A stretch of DNA of 64,000 nucleotides from Planctomycetia bacterium (GTDB lineage: Bacteria; Planctomycetota; Phycisphaerae; UBA1845; UTPLA1). The notes beneath the pieces were generated by a model, which had not been told where the DNA came from, searched no databases, and saw only the letters and a list, made by a program, of their open reading frames with translations. A program made the position numbers and the translations under genes. Positions 30,506 to 39,799 of the stretch are shown here, piece after piece (the first letter of the stretch is position 1; each line of letters starts with the position of its first letter). The stretch lies in assembly GCA_015200345.1 (NCBI GenBank), contig CP054187.1, positions 1,410,470-1,474,469 of the forward strand, given 5' to 3'.

Positions 30506-30827
30506 TCCCTCGCCCGCCCCATCCCCCATATTCCTGTTTTCATATCCCTACAAGCTGTTTCAAAACCCCCTCTCCCTTCAAGTCTTCGCGCCATCGCCAG
30601 ATGCCGCCTTCGCCTACAAGCTGTTTCAAAACCCCCTCTCCCTTCAAGGGAGAGGGCTGGGGTGAGGGTAAAACGAAAAGTTTTCTCACGATTTCCCCCT
30701 CACCTAACCTCTCCACCAAGGGGGAGAGGAGTATTGAAACCGGTTTAAATTCCCTGTTCTCTTTTTGACCTTCCGTGCCTACGCGACCGTCTGCCTCCCT
30801 TTCGACTTGTTGACGTTGCGACCTTTC
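30506..30827. repeat. Gene-free 320-base stretch holding REP-like hairpins and a 36-bp direct repeat
   Basis: A perfect 36-base direct repeat occurs at 30547–30582 and 30613–30648, 30 bases apart. The second copy continues into the palindrome CCCTCTCCCTTCAAGGGAGAGGG and the phrase GGGTGAGGGTAAAA. A second hairpin, CTCTCC-ACCAAGG-GGGAGAG, ends at about 30728. These are the same elements as in the 1057–1740 array. Because the genes on both sides converge here, the hairpins may stop transcription. I see no gene. Confidence 0.75.
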
Positions 30828-31694
30828 TCACCCGCCCGAATACTCCGCATACGTCTTCGCCGTCTCATACACCCGCACCCGAAGCAGCCGCGCCGGCTTC
30901 AACGGCTCCTCCAGCAATCCCCAGATCACCCGCGCGATGTTTTCCACCGACGGATTCACACCCGCGAACTCCGCCACATCACTGTTCAAATGCTTGTGAT
31001 CCAGCCGGTCAATCACCTCGCGCTTCACCACCGCTTCAAACTGCGGAACCTCCACCACGGTGCCCCGGTCGGCCGTCAACTCCCCCCCCACCGTCACCCG
31101 CACTTCGTAATTGTGTCCGTGACCGTTGGGATTATTACATTTGCCGAACACTCGCCGATTCGCCTCGTCCGACAACGACGCCACGTGCAGCCGATGCGAC
31201 GCCGAAAACTCAAAACTCTGCGTCAGTTCCACCATGCCCGGTCGCCTCCCGTCGATCCGACTCGACAAATACGGCGTCGCCGCCAGCATCAGCGACTCCA
31301 GCCGACACCCGCCCGGAACCCGACCCGATACATCCGCGTATATCTCCGAAAGCAGCCGCTCGATCGTCAGCGACACGCCGCGAACCGCCAGCGCCCGCGC
31401 CGCCGCCGGGATCGCATACCGCCGCAGCAACTCATCCAGCACCTGAATATTGACAAGATACCCCGTTGTCGCGTCCGGCTCGCCGCTCACCACGATCCGG
31501 AGCTTCAGGTACGGCGCGACCCCCACCGCCGAGGGCCACCCCCCCCACGAATTCGTCACCGGCAACGCGCCCTCAAACCCGCTCGCCCCGTGCGCGGCAC
31601 GCGCCCAGTCGCGATCGATCGAAAACCGAATCTCACGCATCAGGCAAATCGGGCCAGACAGGCGAACCGGATGAAATGATTCGGGCATGGACAT
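30828..31694 (-). CDS. 6-pyruvoyl-tetrahydropterin synthase/QueD-family protein with two domains
   Basis: A 288-residue protein, about twice the usual size. The C-terminal half is a complete pterin synthase: zinc His in SASHRLH, catalytic Cys and zinc His pair in GKCNNPNGHGHNY, and LDHKHLN and ETAKTYAEY near the end. CNNPNGHGHNY is the arrangement found in 6-pyruvoyl-tetrahydropterin synthases rather than the shorter CxxxHGH of QueD. The N-terminal half has a similar strand-helix pattern (APYLKLRIVVSG, VSLTIERLLSEIY, RLESLMLAATP) but none of the metal ligands, suggesting a degenerate duplicated domain. The ATG follows GGAG. It lies downstream of the head-gene cassette on the same strand. Confidence 0.8.
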   Translation of the reverse strand: MSMPESFHPVRLSGPICLMREIRFSIDRDWARAAHGASGFEGALPVTNSWGGWPSAVGVAPYLKLRIVVSGEPDATTGYLVNIQVLDELLRRYAIPAAARALAVRGVSLTIERLLSEIYADVSGRVPGGCRLESLMLAATPYLSSRIDGRRPGMVELTQSFEFSASHRLHVASLSDEANRRVFGKCNNPNGHGHNYEVRVTVGGELTADRGTVVEVPQFEAVVKREVIDRLDHKHLNSDVAEFAGVNPSVENIARVIWGLLEEPLKPARLLRVRVYETAKTYAEYSGG

Positions 31695-31743
31695 CACGCT
31701 CCATTCTATGGACGCCCTTCCCCCGATGCCACCGATCCGCGCT

Positions 31744-32352
31744 TCAACCGCCCCCTTTACCCCGGCGAAGCTCCGACCGTACCTTCATCAGGATCTTGCC
31801 AAGATGGTTTTCTCCCCGGCCCTCACAAACGCCCCAGAACCGATCGCCCCAGTCGTTCCCCTCGACCAGTTCGGCCTCGCCCGTCGCCAGCAGCTTCGCA
31901 CCCAAATCAGCGTGATTCAGAAACTTGTCGCGAACACACTGCTCCATCACACCGAGCTTCACCTGCTCCCAGTCGACGCGCACCCTCAATCCACGCCCGG
32001 CACGCTTGGCCTCCGATGCCGTCGCCAGCCCCGCGATTCGCGCCCGCTCACCAACATCGAGCGTCTTCGCCGCCTGGTACGCATGCTCAACCGACGGATA
32101 CCGCTTCCCCTCATACGTCACGGCCGCCAGCCAAAAATTAGACAAATAACGATACTCACCGGAAAACGAATCAATCGCAGCCGCCCCCACGCCCGCCGAT
32201 CCATCAATCGTCGGAACCCGCGCGGATTGAACACAAGGCCGGGCCACGCAGCCCATGAGGCCGCTGACACCCAGTCCGACCAGCGCTCCCGTAACCCGCC
32301 GCCGGACTGTGAATCCCTGCCAAACCGCTCGCGTGAGTCCCGCGCCGGTCAT
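31744..32352 (-). CDS. NADAR-domain protein with a lipoprotein signal
   Basis: A 202-residue protein. Residues about 67–195 are a NADAR domain: YRYLSNFWLAAV, YPSVEHAYQAAK, VKLGVMEQCVRDKF and GNDWGDRFWGV, the core features of a family that cleaves N-glycosidic bonds and includes enzymes removing ADP-ribose from guanine in DNA, as well as riboflavin-pathway and phage-linked members. Unusually, residues 1–34 form a lipoprotein signal: basic RRR, hydrophobic VTGALVGLGVSGL, then LMG before Cys35. A start at an internal GTG (codon 55) would give a cytosolic form, but has no good ribosome site. Its ATG lies one base after the stop codon of the 56-residue membrane protein, and it ends the run of genes that begins with the Mu-like terminase. 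Confidence 0.8.
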   Translation of the reverse strand: MTGAGLTRAVWQGFTVRRRVTGALVGLGVSGLMGCVARPCVQSARVPTIDGSAGVGAAAIDSFSGEYRYLSNFWLAAVTYEGKRYPSVEHAYQAAKTLDVGERARIAGLATASEAKRAGRGLRVRVDWEQVKLGVMEQCVRDKFLNHADLGAKLLATGEAELVEGNDWGDRFWGVCEGRGENHLGKILMKVRSELRRGKGGG

Positions 32353-32353
32353 C

Positions 32354-32524
32354 TTACTTCTTCGGATAATCCCGCGGGTCCATCCCCTGGCGAATCATTT
32401 CCATCCGTTCGCGATGCTTGTGGCTCATGCTGACGAGTTGACGCACAATTCCGCCCGCCAGAACCACCACCGCGATCCACGCATACCAGGGCATGGCGTT
32501 GAGTAGCTGCTCAATCCCATTCAT
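32354..32524 (-). CDS. 56-residue single-pass membrane protein
   Basis: One membrane helix (WYAWIAVVVLAGGIVRQLV) near the N-terminus is followed by a charged tail KHRERMEMIRQGMDPRDYPKK. The tail motif (E-R-M-x-M-I-x-x-G-M-D-P) is common in small bacterial inner-membrane proteins of unknown function. It lies between the gp37-like gene and the NADAR gene, one base from the latter. A holin-like role is imaginable from its position in a phage-derived run, but the single helix and conserved tail do not favour it. Confidence 0.65.
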   Translation of the reverse strand: MNGIEQLLNAMPWYAWIAVVVLAGGIVRQLVSMSHKHRERMEMIRQGMDPRDYPKK

Positions 32525-32608
32525 GCTCGCACACTCCTCTCGCGGGCGAATCACTCACGCTCCCGACGTATTGTGCGGCCCCCTGCCATTATTTCCACCA
32601 CCGATCCC

Positions 32609-33076
32609 TTACCCCGGAATGGGTGTCGCCTCGAAGAACGGATACACACGATACATCAATTCGTAAATCACCGACCGATCATCCGCGTACTCAAAACTCA
32701 CCGACAGACTGTTCAACTGGCTCAACCCGTCGGGAATGAAATTGTCCAGCGCCACCCGCACATGATCAATCAACGCCAGACCCCCCGGCGTCGAACCATC
32801 CTCCACCCGCGGGTCTGAACCCACCCGTAGCGTCCGCGCCGCCACCAGCACCGAATAAACCGGCCCGATCCGCAGAATGTTCGTCTCCGGAGCCGTCGGC
32901 TCGAACGTGAACCCCACGTACGCCCCCGGCAGCGCCTCGCGAAGCAATGCCTCCCGCAACGCCGGCCGCGCCCCACCGCTCACCCCGCGCACTGTCTTGA
33001 ACACCGACTCGCCGCTGATCTTCAACAACGACAACTGTTCGACGATCGCCGCCTCCCAATCCCCCAACCGCGACAT
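32609..33076 (-). CDS. Mu gp37-like protein (DUF1834)
   Basis: A 155-residue protein corresponding to Mu gp37, a head-region protein of unknown detail. Typical features are the N-terminal DWEAAIVEQLSLL, the central LVAARTLRVG and the C-terminal SVIYELMYRVYPFFEATPIPG. It follows the gp36-like gene by 17 bases, as in Mu. In Mu the next genes would be the tail sheath and tube; here a small membrane protein and NADAR follow instead. Confidence 0.75.
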   Translation of the reverse strand: MSRLGDWEAAIVEQLSLLKISGESVFKTVRGVSGGARPALREALLREALPGAYVGFTFEPTAPETNILRIGPVYSVLVAARTLRVGSDPRVEDGSTPGGLALIDHVRVALDNFIPDGLSQLNSLSVSFEYADDRSVIYELMYRVYPFFEATPIPG

Positions 33077-33093
33077 GCTTCACCCCCCGCCGC

Positions 33094-33537
33094 TCACAGC
33101 CCGTTCAGACTCTCGCGCGTCATCGAGCGATCCGGTCCCGCCGATTCGCCGCCGATTCCCAACGCCGAATTCTCACGCAGCGCCAGACTCGACGGCAACT
33201 GAACCAGCCCCGATGCCACCCGCGCAAACCACGTCACCGCCTCCTCACGACGTCTCACCACATCGCCCGGCACCGGCGGCTTGCGGCTGTGCAACCGGTA
33301 CGCCGCGAGGTCCAGCACAAAGCACCGCAACACCGACCCAACCTCCGGCTCCGAGGTCAGATCAACCGGCACCGCGTACCGCGCCGCCAGGTAACTGTTC
33401 GCCTCGCCCTCCGCGCCCAGCCGCGCCTCGTCCACCCGCGACGTATTCGCCGTACCACTCCCGTCGTCATCGGTCAACTGAACGTACGCCGCCGGCCCGA
33501 TCCACGACTCGATGTCGCCGTTCGTGATGTATGCCAT
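33094..33537 (-). CDS. Mu gp36-like protein (DUF1320)
   Basis: A 147-residue protein matching Mu gp36, a small head or head–tail-joining protein. The start MAYITNGDIESWIG is typical of the family, as are EGEANSYLAARYAVPVD and VLRCFVLDLAAYRLHSRKPPVPGDVVRR. The upstream extension of the open frame is discarded because it runs into non-coding sequence and the family starts at this Met. It lies between the capsid gene and the gp37-like gene. Confidence 0.8.
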   Translation of the reverse strand: MAYITNGDIESWIGPAAYVQLTDDDGSGTANTSRVDEARLGAEGEANSYLAARYAVPVDLTSEPEVGSVLRCFVLDLAAYRLHSRKPPVPGDVVRRREEAVTWFARVASGLVQLPSSLALRENSALGIGGESAGPDRSMTRESLNGL

Positions 33538-33684
33538 CGCCCTTGCTCTCCGTTCCACCCAGCCAATGGGAACGGCCGGTCGGTGACCGATCACTCCGAC
33601 ACCGTACCGGCCGCGCACCGTCGCCGCTCCCCTTCACCGGCGACCCCCTCCTCCGCACGACTTCACTCCCTCAAGCCTCACGGC

Positions 33685-34599
33685 TCAAACAAAATCCGTC
33701 CGCACCGCGTACTGCCAGTACCCGTACGTCATCCGATACCGCGCCCGAACGCCGTACAGAAACTTCTCGCGCCGAAACGCCTCTTCCGAATCCTCCGACA
33801 ACGCGCTGAACTCGATCGGTTCGCGATCCTGAAAGATGAACGGCCGCACCACGCCGTCCGTCTTCAACAGGTACCACTTCGACAGATCCGTCAGCCACGG
33901 CATTGAGACAACCTTCGCGATCCCCGCCAGCGCGTTGCTTGTATTATCTACTACCGTCGAATTGATCGCCTCCGTCGCCGTGAACAGCATCGTCGGCGGC
34001 ACGACGCACACCAGCCCCGTCGTGTCGATCAGCATCGGCTCGCCCTGGTCATCCTTGAACGCCAGCATCGCCCCGATCGCCGCCTTCAACGCCTCCTTGA
34101 ACTCCGCGACCGTCGGAGCATCCTCGTTCTGCGCCGACGCCGTCAGCAGATTGCCCTGGCTGCCCGAATCGCCCGACGCGTGCGCGCCATTGAAAAAGCT
34201 TACCCCGTCGTAGCTGTTGTTCCCGCTCGTCTCTCCCCCGATCAGCAATTGCGCGATCAGGTAATCCTTGTGCGTCGCCGCCCGCTGCGCCAGCTCCGCC
34301 ACCCGCAACCGGATCTGGCCCGTCTGGTCATCCGCGATCTCGTCGCGATCCACCTCGATCGTCGCCTCGTACTTCAGGTTCGACACCGAGTAGCTCTCGC
34401 TTCGCAGCCCCTGCGTCAGCCGACCGCTGCCCCATTCGCGCAATTTCGGAACCGTCCCCAGCCACCGATACGTCTCGTGATCGCTCGTCGACACGATCCG
34501 CGTCGACAGCTCCCCGAAATGCGTCCGCGTCGCGCCGAACCGATTGAAAAACTCGCTCCGCAAACCCTTCGTCAACAACCCCGTATTAATCACCGCCAT
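33685..34599 (-). CDS. Major capsid protein, Mu gpT-like
   Basis: A 304-residue HK97-fold-type capsid protein of the Mu gpT family. Diagnostic stretches are LLTKGLRSEFFNRFG at the N-terminus, YRWLGTVPKLREWGSGR, YEATIEVDRDEIADDQTG and YDGVSFFNGAHASG, then the C-terminal YGVRARYRMTYGYWQYA. Length and segment order are as in gpT. It would form the icosahedral shell. It sits between the decoration-like gene (55 bases upstream) and the gp36-like gene, which is the Mu order. The frame has no interruptions. Confidence 0.87.
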   Translation of the reverse strand: MAVINTGLLTKGLRSEFFNRFGATRTHFGELSTRIVSTSDHETYRWLGTVPKLREWGSGRLTQGLRSESYSVSNLKYEATIEVDRDEIADDQTGQIRLRVAELAQRAATHKDYLIAQLLIGGETSGNNSYDGVSFFNGAHASGDSGSQGNLLTASAQNEDAPTVAEFKEALKAAIGAMLAFKDDQGEPMLIDTTGLVCVVPPTMLFTATEAINSTVVDNTSNALAGIAKVVSMPWLTDLSKWYLLKTDGVVRPFIFQDREPIEFSALSEDSEEAFRREKFLYGVRARYRMTYGYWQYAVRTDFV

Positions 34600-34653
34600 G
34601 GCTCACACCCCGCTTTTTCTTCGTCCCCGTTCCCTGTTCCTTCGTCTCCACGC

Positions 34654-35409
34654 TCACGGCAGCTCAATGAACCGCACCGTCAGCACGCCGCCCACGCCAG
34701 CCGTCGTCGTCGCCTGGCCCACCTTCGCCCAGATCCGCTGATTCTTCGACACGTCGCGCGTCTCCAGCGTCAGCACCGTCGGCGTATTCGCCGACAGCGT
34801 CGTCAGGTTGAACGCGTCGATCACCTCGTCCGGATCGCTGTTGTCCGTGCCCACGTCCAGCACCCCCGCACCCGGCACCGTGTTGAAACTCACCTGCGCC
34901 GTCAGGATGCGAATCGCCCGCTGCGTAATCATCACCGGATTCACCGTCGCGCCGGACAGCGAACTCGCCAGCGGCACGCTGATGAGCTGCTCCACGCGCG
35001 AACCCCCCAGCGGGTCGATCCGCACGATCCCCTTGCCAGACGACACCATCGACACCAGCGCCCCGCAATAGCTCCCGCCCGCCAGCGGGTTCACCGTCGT
35101 CGATTCGTTGTCCTGCGCGTACACCGTCACGCCCGCCAGCGCGGCCGCCACCCCGCTCACCGGCAGCACAAAATCGCCTTGTGTATACACGCGGACCGTC
35201 CGTGCACCGCCCGTGCCGCCGCTGTTGTCCACCTCCTCGTACGACACCCCCGCGAACGAATCCCCTGCCACGAGGTTCCGTACATGCCCCGTCGTCCGGT
35301 CGATTCCCAGCAACGCCCCCTTCCACACATGCGCCGACGCCGCCACCGAATAGCTTCGCAACTCCTGATCCACGTAACGACTCAACTCCCGATTCGCCGT
35401 TATCGCCAT
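34654..35409 (-). CDS. Probable capsid decoration protein (DUF2190-like)
   Basis: A 251-residue beta-rich protein. The first half resembles small phage cement proteins: VAASAHVWKGALLGID, SFAGVSYEEVDNS, VRVYTQGDFVLPVSG and VAAALAGVTVYAQDN. The second half is a further all-beta domain without a family I recognise. Its place between the protease and capsid genes fits a decoration or scaffold-region product; Mu has a smaller gene there. The ATG follows GAGCGAGG. Assignment rests on context and on the DUF2190-like pattern. Confidence 0.6.
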   Translation of the reverse strand: MAITANRELSRYVDQELRSYSVAASAHVWKGALLGIDRTTGHVRNLVAGDSFAGVSYEEVDNSGGTGGARTVRVYTQGDFVLPVSGVAAALAGVTVYAQDNESTTVNPLAGGSYCGALVSMVSSGKGIVRIDPLGGSRVEQLISVPLASSLSGATVNPVMITQRAIRILTAQVSFNTVPGAGVLDVGTDNSDPDEVIDAFNLTTLSANTPTVLTLETRDVSKNQRIWAKVGQATTTAGVGGVLTVRFIELP

Positions 35410-35506
35410 CGTCGCCTCGCTCCCTTCTCACGCTTCTCACGCGCTGAACAAACCACCCTTGCCCGTTGCCGAATTCCCCGGTTCATAAATTATACACTTG
35501 ACTATA

Positions 35507-36487
35507 CTACCCGCCATTCGCACGCCCGACTCGCACCGCCTCCGCCACATACGCCTCCTCGCTGCACAGCCGCTCCAGGAACGACCGATTCGCCCGATAC
35601 TCCGCACGTGCCGACGCCTCGATCGCCGGCGGCCTCGCCTGCGTCGCGCATCCGACTCCCAATCGCGCAGAGGCGAACCGACCCATCGGAACCACCACCG
35701 GCGCTGACTCCGCCCACTTCCTGAACTCCTCCGGATCGCGCAGCGCCAACTCGAACGCCCACGACCGCTGCGACGGAGCGAGCTTCCCGGACGACGACGC
35801 CTCCGCCACCAGCGCCGCCGCCGCGCGACGCGCTTCCACGTCCTCCAACTGGGCGATCCGATCCGCTGCCGCGATCAGCACCACGTCCTGCGTCGCCGAT
35901 TCATCCAGCACCAGCATCCGCCGCAGCCGCTCCCCCGCGGCGCCATCCCCGGCCCCCCCGTTCACCACCGGCTGCATCCCCACGATCGCCGGCTTGTTCG
36001 TCAACGCCGCCGAGTGCAGCCCCACCAGTCGCCGATCGCTCCGCCGCACCAGCGCAACAGGAGACAAATAGCGATATTGCCGGCTCGCCAGCTTCGATGC
36101 CGCTTCCGGCGTCCACTGAACCTCCGCCCACAGGCCGGCCGCGCGCCCGTCGGAAGCCTCCTCGGGACGCACCAGCTTCAGCGCCTTGATCCATCCCGCC
36201 GCCGGCGCCAGGCCGTCCGGCGAGCTGTACGCTCCGCCCAGCGTCTGATGCTCGTAATCGATCGGCACGTCCGTCCCGTGCGCCGCGAATGCCTCGATTG
36301 TGGCACGCGCCGACTCGTCGTCCAGCAAAAAATCCCCCGCCGTGCTCCGGACCCGGCCCCACGGCGCAATCAGCACCTCCCCCGGCGGCTCACCCAGACC
36401 GATCCCCGCCGCCTCCATCACCACTTCGCTCACCTCGCCCCGATCCGCCGCCGCTCCGCTCGCTACTATATCTACACCCGTCGCCAT
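35507..36487 (-). CDS. Head maturation protease/scaffold, Mu gpI-like
   Basis: A 326-residue protein of the Mu I family, which processes the prohead and supplies the scaffold from the same gene. Characteristic are VLIAPWGRVRSTAGDFLLDD, DVPIDYEHQT, PAAGWIKALK, YRYLSPVALV and LHSAALTNKPAI in the protease part, then a helical Ala/Glu/Arg-rich scaffold region and a C-terminal segment. The ATG was chosen for the strong GGAGGG upstream; the open frame extends 21 codons further without support. It lies between the portal and decoration genes. Confidence 0.82.
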   Translation of the reverse strand: MATGVDIVASGAAADRGEVSEVVMEAAGIGLGEPPGEVLIAPWGRVRSTAGDFLLDDESARATIEAFAAHGTDVPIDYEHQTLGGAYSSPDGLAPAAGWIKALKLVRPEEASDGRAAGLWAEVQWTPEAASKLASRQYRYLSPVALVRRSDRRLVGLHSAALTNKPAIVGMQPVVNGGAGDGAAGERLRRMLVLDESATQDVVLIAAADRIAQLEDVEARRAAAALVAEASSSGKLAPSQRSWAFELALRDPEEFRKWAESAPVVVPMGRFASARLGVGCATQARPPAIEASARAEYRANRSFLERLCSEEAYVAEAVRVGRANGG

Positions 36488-36562
36488 CGCTCCGGCCCTC
36501 CTTCTACCTGCCTGTTCGCCGATTCGTTGATCGCACCGCCGTCTCACCAACGCCGGACGCTT

Positions 36563-37906
36563 TCACTCTTGCCCGCTGTTCCCCCCGCCAGACCCCTCGC
36601 CATCCGCCCCGCCGGCCAGCACCGACTCGCCCGCCGACGCCACCGGCACCCCCAACGCCTGGTGCGCCCACGTCGCCGGCACCCGCGCCCCCAGCCGGTT
36701 CACCGCGATGTCCAGCACTTCCGCCAGCCGACGCGCGTCAAGCCGGCCCTCCACCTGCCGCTCGAAATACGGAACCGCCGCACCCGGCCCGAACTGCATT
36801 CGCACCAGCGGCCCCAGCAGATCGCGCCGCAGCGTCTGCGCCTCGCGACGAATGTCGTCATCACGCAGATCACGTCGCACGTGGTCGTGTACTTTCGCCG
36901 CGCCCGCGCTCGCCAGCATCCGCGCCGTGTCCGTCGTCAGCGTCTGGCCCAGCCACGCCTTGCTGATCTCGCGATCAAAATACAGGCACAGATTCTCGAA
37001 CAGATTCACCTCGCCCGGCACGCGCGACTGGATGATCTCCAGTTGAATCGCCTTCGAAAACACGCCCGTTGCATCCGCCCCGAGCTGCTTCAGCATCGCC
37101 AGCATCTCACGCTTCTCTTCCGACGTCGCGCCTGGTTCGTACCGCGCGATCCGAACCGGCATCCCGAATGCCTCCGCGAAGATCAGCCAGTCCTTGATCG
37201 CGAACCGCTTCGCCAGGTACGCCAAACCCGTCACCCGCGCCAGGCCCCCGCGCAGCGGATGACCGCTCGCCGACTGCGGCGCGTGAACGACAAACTTGTT
37301 CGGCGGCAACGCCTCACCCTGATATTTCTCATCTTCCGTCAGCACCCGAAGCTCACCCGAATCGCCCAGCGTCAGCCGATCGAACGGCACCGGCACGATC
37401 TCCACCGGACGCACGCCGCCCCCGTCCGCCTCCCACACAATTTCTGCAACCGCAAGACCGCGACCGGTCGCCAGCGACAGATGCGCGAGCGTCTCTTCAA
37501 ACCCCGGCAGGTCACGAAGCACCGACTCGCAATACGCCGCGGTTTCCTGCGCCGAAGCGCCGCCCCCGACCGGTCGCGTCGCCGCGCCTGCCGCCGGCCG
37601 CGCCAAATCCACCCCCGGCGGCGTCGCCGACACCCGCCACGGCAGCCCCGTCACCGCCAGCCGGCGCGTGGCGGCAACGCTAAATAGATGCGCGTCTTTT
37701 TCCTCCATCTGTTCCGACAGCGCCAGTTGCGCGCCCAGGTCTCCCGCGTCCGCCTCCCGAAAAATCGCCAGCAGCCGCTGCGGCGTCAGACCATCCGCCG
37801 GGTACGCCCGCAATCCCCAATCCCCCCCGCGGCTCACCATCACCCCGCTCGCCGGCCGCCCCGCCGCGCCCCGTACCGCGTTGACAATTCGATCCAAAAA
37901 CCGCAT
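36563..37906 (-). CDS. Portal protein, Mu gp29-like (DUF935)
   Basis: A 447-residue portal, the dodecameric ring through which DNA enters the capsid. Matching features are YPADGLTPQRLLAIFREADAG, LALSEQMEEKDAHLFSVAATR, YCESVLRDLPGFEETLAHL and IVWEADGG, then GGLARVTGLAYLAKRFAIKD and WLIFAEAFGMPVRIARYEPG. GGGAGGGCGAG precedes the ATG. The gene lies 99 bases downstream of the terminase. In Mu a minor head protein (gp30/F) gene comes between portal and protease; none is present here. Confidence 0.88.
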   Translation of the reverse strand: MRFLDRIVNAVRGAAGRPASGVMVSRGGDWGLRAYPADGLTPQRLLAIFREADAGDLGAQLALSEQMEEKDAHLFSVAATRRLAVTGLPWRVSATPPGVDLARPAAGAATRPVGGGASAQETAAYCESVLRDLPGFEETLAHLSLATGRGLAVAEIVWEADGGGVRPVEIVPVPFDRLTLGDSGELRVLTEDEKYQGEALPPNKFVVHAPQSASGHPLRGGLARVTGLAYLAKRFAIKDWLIFAEAFGMPVRIARYEPGATSEEKREMLAMLKQLGADATGVFSKAIQLEIIQSRVPGEVNLFENLCLYFDREISKAWLGQTLTTDTARMLASAGAAKVHDHVRRDLRDDDIRREAQTLRRDLLGPLVRMQFGPGAAVPYFERQVEGRLDARRLAEVLDIAVNRLGARVPATWAHQALGVPVASAGESVLAGGADGEGSGGGNSGQE

Positions 37907-38005
37907 GTCTCGCCCTCCCTTCGTCTGCAAGGATGAGTCGTGAGTCGTTAGTCATTCCGCTTCCCGGTTTCATCCGCGCGGTCGTACCGCCGTTTCGACG
38001 TCTCC

Positions 38006-39391
38006 TCACCAGATCCCCTGCCGCGCGAACCGCGCCGCGCCGCCCGTCAGATACTCCACCTCGCCGGTCCCGACGTGCCGCGCCGCCGCATGCGCCGCCA
38101 GCGCCGCCGCCCAGAATCGGTCCGCGTGTCCGCCCGTCGCCCGATCCGACTCGTATCGTACGTGCCCGCTTTGTGACACGACCCGGGTCAGCGAATGCCA
38201 ATCTCGTTCGATGGCGTCATCCACTGGAATCCGAATCCGGCCCGTCTCCGACAACATCCGCAACCGCCCCGCCAGTTCAGATTTCAACCCCGCCGTAAAC
38301 GTCAATCCCTCCACGCGATAGCTCCCGAACCGCCGCTCCAGCCGTTCCGCCAGGTGCATCCCCAATCCGGTCGCATCGACGCAGCACCGTCTCACGCTCC
38401 GCTGACCCAGCACCTCGCCGATCACCCGCTCCTGCTCTTCGAACGACGCACGCTCCAGCACCAGCACGCCCCGCGTCTCTAGCAACTCGCCGCTGCGCTC
38501 CACGATCCACACCGCCGTGACATCGCGCACACGCCCCACATCCACGCCCACGTACGCATCCGCCCCCGCGCGCTGCAACGCCAACCAATCTACAGTCGTC
38601 GACAATCGAACCTCCTGGCACCGCCGGATCAACTCGTACGGCATGAAGCTCGTCGCCTCGTCCACGAACTCGCAGCACATCTCCTGCCGCCAGATCAGCT
38701 CATCCCCGATCGCCTCGCGCAGCTCCGTCGCGTCCGCCTCCAGCCCCTCCGCGATCGCCTCCTCCAGCGTCACCGTCGTCCGTTCGAACCTCGCGTTGTC
38801 ACGCAGCCGCGCGAACAGGTTCTTCACCCCGCGCGGCGTCGAACACACGTCCAGCTCGCCGCGCCCGCGCAAGATGGACGGATAAAGCGCCGCCCACACG
38901 GCCTCGTCCTCCTGGTGCATCGCGAACTCATCAAGAAACACGTCCCCCGTAAACCCGCGCGCGGTCAGCGGATTGGCCGGCAGCCCGATGATGCGCACCC
39001 CGCCGGGCAGGCGAATCTCCAACTGGCGATAGGAGGTGTTGCGAAAGTAGCCGTCACCGCGAAATTCCGCCGCGATCTTCAGCGCCTGGCAGTGCAGGTA
39101 TGCTTTCTCCATCACTTCGCGGCTTTGCCGCTCGCCGGCGGAAAGAACAATCTGCGTCCGCCGCCGCAGCAAGCCTCGCACCAGGCGCCGCAGGCTGAAG
39201 GTGAAACTCTTGCCCGTCTGCCGCGCCCAGCAGTTCCACGTGAACCGCGACGCACTCTCCACCATCCGCCGCTGGTAGGCCGGCATCGGGAGTGCCGCAA
39301 TGTTGGCATTCCCGGACGGTTCAGGACCATCCGACTGCCGATCGGCCGCCCCACGGATCTGCGAATTCACGTTGTCAGATTCGGCGCCCAT
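38006..39391 (-). CDS. Terminase large subunit, Mu gp28-like
   Basis: A 461-residue DNA-packaging motor. The ATPase domain has a Walker-A-like ARQTGKS followed by FSLRRLVRGLLRR, and a Walker B VFLDEFA. The C-terminal RNase-H-like nuclease keeps acidic residues in VGVDVGR, CCVDATGLG and GHADRFWAAALA, so both activities look intact. The N-terminus has an extra polar stretch of about 30 residues before LPMPAYQRRMVES. ATG 39391 is used; GTG 39400 is an alternative. This is the first gene of the cassette; no small terminase subunit is recognisable upstream. Confidence 0.87.
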   Translation of the reverse strand: MGAESDNVNSQIRGAADRQSDGPEPSGNANIAALPMPAYQRRMVESASRFTWNCWARQTGKSFTFSLRRLVRGLLRRRTQIVLSAGERQSREVMEKAYLHCQALKIAAEFRGDGYFRNTSYRQLEIRLPGGVRIIGLPANPLTARGFTGDVFLDEFAMHQEDEAVWAALYPSILRGRGELDVCSTPRGVKNLFARLRDNARFERTTVTLEEAIAEGLEADATELREAIGDELIWRQEMCCEFVDEATSFMPYELIRRCQEVRLSTTVDWLALQRAGADAYVGVDVGRVRDVTAVWIVERSGELLETRGVLVLERASFEEQERVIGEVLGQRSVRRCCVDATGLGMHLAERLERRFGSYRVEGLTFTAGLKSELAGRLRMLSETGRIRIPVDDAIERDWHSLTRVVSQSGHVRYESDRATGGHADRFWAAALAAHAAARHVGTGEVEYLTGGAARFARQGIW

Positions 39392-39799
39392 TCCAACCAC
39401 CCCGGGAAAATCGAAAAGCCCCGCGAACCGGCCCAGCGGCCGACGCCATCAGAAACTCATTCTTGCCCGGCGATCCGGTCGGACCGATTTCCGCCGCCAC
39501 CCGGTTTCACGACCCGCGCACCGACCAATCCCCCAACCTCGAACGGGTTCCGGCTTCGCCGTTATGGCGCCGCCGGAAATTATTGATTATTGCATAGATA
39601 CGGCTGGGGCTCGTCCCCTTTTCACGATCCTTCGGCCGCCTGCTTTCCGTCGGCTTCGTACGCCATGCCTTGACTGCGATGGCTCCACGACCGCGATGAT
39701 TCACGCTCGCAATTCCATTCGACGGCGGTAACATTCCCCCAAACGACGCACGCGAAGAATCGGTTCTCCGCGTGCAATTGACCTCAATGGAGGATATCC
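39392..39799. other. Intergenic region between the head-gene cassette and the DUF1264 gene
   Basis: About 400 bases between two divergent genes, likely holding the promoters of both. An AT-rich patch (39578–39602) stands out from the surrounding GC-rich sequence, but I could not fit a convincing -35/-10 pair on either strand. GGAGG precedes the ATG at 39800. I see no gene here. Confidence 0.6.

Follow-up and report, generated by a model that had tools for sequence, protein, structure and literature searches.

The 64-kb window of Planctomycetia bacterium analysed here (the whole stretch, from contig CP054187.1) contains a seven-gene, Mu-like head cassette (32609-39400, minus strand), which is probably a host-owned, phage-derived head-and-packaging machine, i.e., a viriform of the gene-transfer agent (GTA) type, acquired no later than the common ancestor of the order and inherited vertically since then. 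A preliminary description of this DNA had proposed an exapted capsid and packaging system, and this proposal is supported by the order-wide presence of the cassette, its co-diversification with the host, purifying selection, intact splitting between loci, and a tail-shaft removal that can be reconstructed. For its function, as a GTA or another particle, we propose a GTA-like placement.

Gene content of the cassette

The seven genes are intact open frames in the order known from phage Mu, as had been described before and as their open reading frames (ORFs) and Pfam and PHROG matches confirm:

38006..39400, minus strand: large terminase subunit (TerL), Mu gp28-like, ATPase and RNase H-like nuclease (Terminase_6C 5e-13, Terminase_6N 1e-11, both Pfam; phrog_5909 6e-43)
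36563..37930, minus strand: portal, Mu gp29 (Portal_Mu 1.4e-87); the start may be the ATG at ~37906
35507..36550, minus strand: head protease/scaffold, Mu I (Mu-like_Pro 4.8e-50)
34654..35409, minus strand: decoration or head-stabilising protein (phrog_1731 4.3e-17), kept beside gpT in relatives
33685..34599, minus strand: major capsid protein gpT, 304 amino acids (aa) (Mu-like_gpT 5.3e-57)
33094..33537, minus strand: gp36 head-tail connector (Phage_Mu_Gp36 1.9e-20); the ORF is listed to 33618, with a likely ATG at 33537
32609..33076, minus strand: gp37, tail-terminator domain only, from alignment with longer relatives whose C-terminal Dit-like domain is missing here

Of 19 orthologues, 18-19 retain the Walker A and Walker B motifs of TerL and its three nuclease aspartates, in agreement with the earlier statement that the ATPase and nuclease residues are preserved. 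Strong ribosome-binding sites had also been reported, and some are present, such as the Shine-Dalgarno sequence agaaggagg before the likely protease start (ATG at ~36487, codon 21 of the listed ORF), but some starts lie inside the listed ORFs and the true start of TerL is uncertain. Codon use does resemble that of the host (pooled r 0.81), although it is not distinctive (host genes 0.62-0.97), and the interval first delimited, which began at 31744, took in a NADAR gene and a 66-aa membrane protein that lie outside the cassette proper. The gp36 of relatives mostly has 148 codons. On its own, the gp37 of the window is matched weakly (phrog_490, E 0.055); longer orthologues match Phage_Mu_Gp37 (6e-8) and phrog_490 (1e-12). 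In most families of the order, the gpT segments that match the Pfam model are permuted (4-143, 223-289, 155-215), and in family f4 they are collinear, possibly through a capsid rearrangement or as a model artefact.

Distribution and vertical inheritance

Among 61 genomes, the window's own included, 53 carry gpT, as do 44 of the 47 good ones; Portal_Mu is found in 45 of these 47, mostly as a single copy, and a close TerL in 34, the gaps falling mainly in family f4. In a class-wide draw, ~59 of the 64 good genomes from this order had full-length gpT, vs. ~2 of 183 from outside the order (both counted from the listing, assuming that kin come first in it). Almost all named relatives are metagenome-assembled genomes (MAGs) of Phycisphaerae/Planctomycetota, and one of them bears the name UBA1845, which we take to be the GTDB order. 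The frames of the cassette are intact across tens of genera.

Inheritance was examined by comparing an rpoB tree with a tree of the concatenated protease, decoration protein, gpT, and gp36 in 29 genomes: 21 of 26 splits are common to both, and label shuffles yield at most 3. The RpoB of the window's family (L190-L202) is ~100 residues longer than that of other families, and its profile match breaks near position 391. Downstream of the cassette, a PTPS gene recurs in 8 of the 12 loci read from the window's family. Ratios of nonsynonymous to synonymous substitution (dN/dS; Nei-Gojobori counts, window vs. G001, a genome of the same genus) are 0.041 for gpT, 0.09 for the decoration protein, 0.10 for gp37, 0.14 for TerL, 0.16 for the portal, 0.19 for gp36, and 0.20 for the protease, next to 0.11-0.17 for the host neighbours PTPS, HEAT, pyrD, and rluB. 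All seven cassette genes are thus under purifying selection. Both the survey of relatives and the dN/dS estimates had been suggested beforehand as checks on exaptation, and both came out in its favour.

In eight genomes of family f5 and in G003 (of the window's own family), TerL and the portal that immediately follows it are surrounded by host genes and separated from the protease-capsid block. The gene map of G030 has no portal call after the separate TerL, yet a profile search matches a portal there. In G045 the TerL-portal and protease-capsid blocks are ~20 kb apart on one contig; in most other cases they are on different contigs. Such an intact split of the cassette over host loci is not something that a mobile phage would be expected to tolerate.

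Several members of the order depart from the common layout. In f4 (L066, L069, L070, and L071) the head cassette includes an extra 186-249-aa gene after the portal, which clusters with the portal family, and some f4 members have an unrelated terminase elsewhere in the genome; a terminase shared by f4 was sought with Terminase_6C, which gave scattered matches, several of them with wrongly picked frames, and none was established. The TerL of G023 is broken into two pieces. In G009 (L237), TerL and portal are kept beside a second copy of the portal's C-terminal part, and the genome gives no match to gpT; this is possibly a case of late decay.

Ancestral tail and its reduction

The longest version among relatives reads TerL-portal-protease-decoration-gpT-gp36-gp37 (~277 aa)-c9 (~700 aa)-c10-c8-(gp37b)-c7-c11-c15, in which c9 to c15 are without a Pfam match and without an informative one in PHROG. 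The AlphaFold model of c9 (predicted local distance difference test, pLDDT, 56) finds its best PDB matches mostly among baseplate hubs, including Mu gp44 and T4 gp27, and c9 is referred to below as the hub. The model of the long gp37 (pLDDT 84) matches the Mu tail terminator (9khy) and also, in alignments of ~130 columns, Dit-type distal-tail proteins; judging from the alignment lengths, the order of the domains, and the N-terminal half's match in PHROG, its N-half is predicted to be the terminator and its C-half to be Dit-like. Genome searches place the Dit-like domain in 21 of the 61 genomes, mostly in ORFs of ~280 codons beside gpT.

Phage relatives retain what the host version has dropped. 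Related IMG/VR phage contigs have a gpT 49-69% identical, and L213, L214, L218, L036, and L039 carry related head genes (gpT ~40-62% identical to that of the window), while a related hub occurs in L213, L214, L218, and L250. On phage contig L213, gp36 is followed by a terminator (phrog_490 1e-7), a 313-aa gene of tube size, a 505-aa gene of tape-measure size, a 146-aa Dit-like ORF that matches the gp37 C-domain (5.8e-11), and the hub; this layout recurs in L218, where a tape-measure match is found in PHROG, and the prophage L250 (in G043) carries its Dit-like relative as a separate 139-aa gene ahead of the hub. L214 and L218 each have a gene of fitting size and place for the Dit-like protein, without a significant match. 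Since terminator, tube, tape measure, and Dit-like protein are separate genes in these phages, the host version has dropped the tube and the tape measure and joined the terminator to the Dit-like domain. The nearest free relatives, with tape-measure-type tails and no sheath match, look siphovirus-like. The ancestral phage had a head of Mu type and a tape-measured tail.

A further reduction followed. The hub tree shares 6 of 7 splits with rpoB, a fit equalled by 0 of 5000 shuffles, so that the hub is most likely ancestral; parsimony on the rpoB tree requires at least 7 changes for the hub and at least 6 for the Dit-like domain. By this reconstruction, the hub was lost several times after the ancestral form arose, and the window's genus keeps only the terminator domain. 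That the head genes are still under purifying selection once stripped of the tip is the most surprising point of the analysis. In part of family f8 (L050, L057, L058, and L061), distal genes c24, c25, and c26 stand after gp36 in place of gp37 and the hub and may have replaced the terminator and tip. In both G023 and G043 (L048 and L054), an in-frame TAG shortens c8 to ~154 codons.

Searches for missing phage functions

The window's own genome is a single 3.88-Mb contig, to which the genome-wide profile searches refer. The absence of a tail sheath, reported earlier for the locus, holds genome-wide: the Phage_sheath_1 profile (PF04984) has no match in this genome, with 1 of 61 genomes and 3 of 14 controls positive. 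The hub, c8, and the Dit-like domain likewise have no match anywhere in the genome, and tail genes elsewhere, which had been named as a finding that would tell against exaptation, were therefore not encountered among these four. The tape-measure profile phrog_167 is unspecific, matching all 14 controls, and is uninformative genome-wide. No MuA/MuB-type gene or repressor occurs among the neighbouring genes (a genome-wide search for these was not made), no small terminase or pac element was recognised, no integrase is present among the flanking genes tested, and the window has no tRNA; att-like repeats around the cassette amount to weak, composition-driven matches. A complete prophage at the site in relatives, likewise anticipated as contrary evidence, was found at none of 40 relative loci read, and the complete relatives L036, L039, and L250 sit elsewhere.

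Flanking genes

Host genes had been reported at both ends of the cassette, and the flanking genes tested are indeed host metabolic or uncharacterised genes: a DUF1264 protein, an RRM protein, enoyl-CoA hydratase, and 3-hydroxyacyl-CoA dehydrogenase on one flank, and PTPS, a HEAT-repeat protein, a methyltransferase, dihydroorotate dehydrogenase, and a pseudouridine synthase on the other. Three features lie next to gp37:

32354..32554, minus strand: 66-aa protein with a single transmembrane segment, not counted in the cassette (weak DUF6249)
31744..32352, minus strand: NADAR-domain protein, outside the conserved cassette (NADAR 9.7e-29)
30828..31697, minus strand: host PTPS/QueD-type gene, the downstream landmark in the family (PTPS 8.7e-36)

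Among the loci read, the NADAR gene and the 66-aa protein stand between cassette and PTPS only in the window and in same-genus G001 (L034). The NADAR gene evolves faster than its neighbours (65% identity, dN/dS 0.27 vs. G001) and could conceivably be linked to phage counter-defence. Between the HEAT gene and PTPS, at 30547-30648, a 36-nt sequence occurs twice as identical direct repeats, with a period of 66 nt.

Interpretation

In the favoured GTA-type viriform, the protease/scaffold, gpT, and the decoration protein would assemble a procapsid on the portal, and TerL would drive DNA into the head, most likely host DNA without sequence choice, because there is no sign of a small terminase or pac element; the neck would then be closed by gp36 and the gp37 terminator. 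The ancestral domesticated form, with tube and tape measure gone and the terminator-Dit-like fusion followed by the hub, may have been a stub-tailed particle able to dock and deliver DNA. With the Dit-like domain and the hub gone, the particle of the window's genus would be tail-less. Release and any delivery are likewise proposals.

Some observations weigh against this reading. All titled relatives are uncultured MAGs, and neither particles nor packaged DNA nor transfer have been observed. Genes for lysis or control were not recognised either. The capsid gene is absent from a few members of the order (G009, G017, and G027), so that it is not universally required, and family f4, having no close TerL relative, may use another terminase or none. 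The lineage of the window is devoid of any known delivery part (sheath, hub, c8, and Dit-like domain having been searched in its own genome), and the hub model is of low confidence.

A bolder version, which we advance tentatively and consider possible rather than probable, is that the cassette represents a new viriform class: a Mu-headed, siphovirus-like phage would have been domesticated by excision of the tail shaft and fusion of terminator and distal-tail protein, and several lineages would then have dropped the delivery tip, with packaging into tail-less heads, not injection, being itself selected. Tail-less packaging could in that case bring benefit through release for competence uptake, DNA protection or storage, or self-sacrifice.

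Domestication for an intracellular product (a compartment, DNA storage, or decoys that poison the assembly of related infecting phages) is rather unlikely. It would fit the persistence of the head genes through the repeated losses of hub and Dit-like domain, and phages with related head genes do occur in the same genomes (L036 and L039); however, purifying selection acts on the portal, on TerL with its ATPase and nuclease residues intact, on the connector, and on the terminator, none of which a simple shell or decoy would need. We judge it unlikely, too, that this is a fully functional GTA with tail parts elsewhere in the genome, too diverged for recognition. GTAs are often distributed over several loci (PMC9662315), the present system is split in f5 and G003, and c24-c26 substitute the usual distal genes in part of f8; nevertheless, searches of the genome found none of sheath, hub, c8, and Dit-like domain, and the common step in the order is tail-shaft removal, not relocation.

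A satellite of the capsid-forming type known from phage-inducible chromosomal islands (PICIs), building its own heads and borrowing tails from helper phages, is very improbable. Head and packaging genes without tail genes, and helper-like prophages in relatives, are what such an element would show, but the lack of an integrase, tRNA, or clear att-like repeats in the places searched, trees that match the host, a conserved downstream context, and the separation of genes between loci in f5 speak against mobility and largely refute this reading. Least credible of all is a decaying prophage remnant kept by chance: distal genes are missing in the window's genus and G009 has TerL and portal without a capsid, yet frames are intact across tens of genera, dN/dS is 0.04-0.20, and co-diversification is order-wide; purifying selection over the depth of the order refutes it. 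A recent prophage is rejected as well, and an encapsulin is ruled out by the presence and conservation of TerL, portal, protease, and connector.

Comparison with known systems and significance

Six features of GTAs have been published, and the GTAs listed come from alphaproteobacteria, a deltaproteobacterium, a spirochete, and a methanogen (PMC9662315). Three of the six are found here: proteins derived from caudoviricetes (the Pfam and PHROG matches of the head genes), full endogenisation (the host-flanked position, and TerL-portal at a separate locus in f5 and G003), and vertical inheritance with host co-diversification; the system is filed on that basis as GTA-like, not as a proven GTA. As for a fourth, that a GTA's own genes cannot all be packaged, the f5 loci lie apart, but the 6.8-kb cassette of the window could fit into a head of Mu size. 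For the remaining two, packaging of mostly random host DNA and delivery of DNA to other cells, no small terminase or pac element was recognised, and the window's genome yielded no delivery part in the searches for sheath, hub, c8, and Dit-like domain. With GTAs such as RcGTA, the cassette shares caudoviricete-derived head and packaging genes, endogenisation, host-congruent trees, purifying selection, the absence of visible mobility genes, and, in part of the order, split loci. It differs from them in its Mu-type head, its new host order in Planctomycetota, the removed shaft, the terminator-Dit-like fusion, and the frequent loss of the hub.

The Mu head module (gp28-gp29-I-gpT-gp36-gp37) corresponds to the cassette in gene order and families, whereas gp30, transposase, repressor, lysis, sheath, tube, and baseplate genes are lacking in the latter; of the features of Mu-like transposable phages, the head order is thus present, and the contractile-tail sheath and transposition genes at the locus are absent. 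The related phages L213, L214, L218, L036, L039, and L250 differ in keeping tube- and tape-measure-type genes, with a demonstrably separate Dit-like protein in L213 and L250. Capsid-forming PICIs resemble the cassette in having their own head and packaging genes and no tail, but they are mobile satellites, whereas the cassette is a fixed chromosomal trait. Encapsulins are HK97-type shell proteins adopted by cells and package enzymes (PMC8346489); in contrast, the cassette retains portal, terminase, protease, and neck genes.

No description of a planctomycete or Phycisphaerae GTA was found in the open-access literature, and, as far as that literature shows, neither the order-wide presence nor the fusion nor the repeated loss of the tip has been described before. 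If the favoured reading is true, the cassette would be an order-wide GTA candidate in Planctomycetota with a traceable structural history and would represent an independent domestication. Because delivery parts were lost several times while head and packaging genes are still selected, the question of whether packaging or delivery is selected in a GTA becomes testable, and gpT, the portal, and the fused gp37 could serve as markers for such particles in viral-fraction metagenomes.

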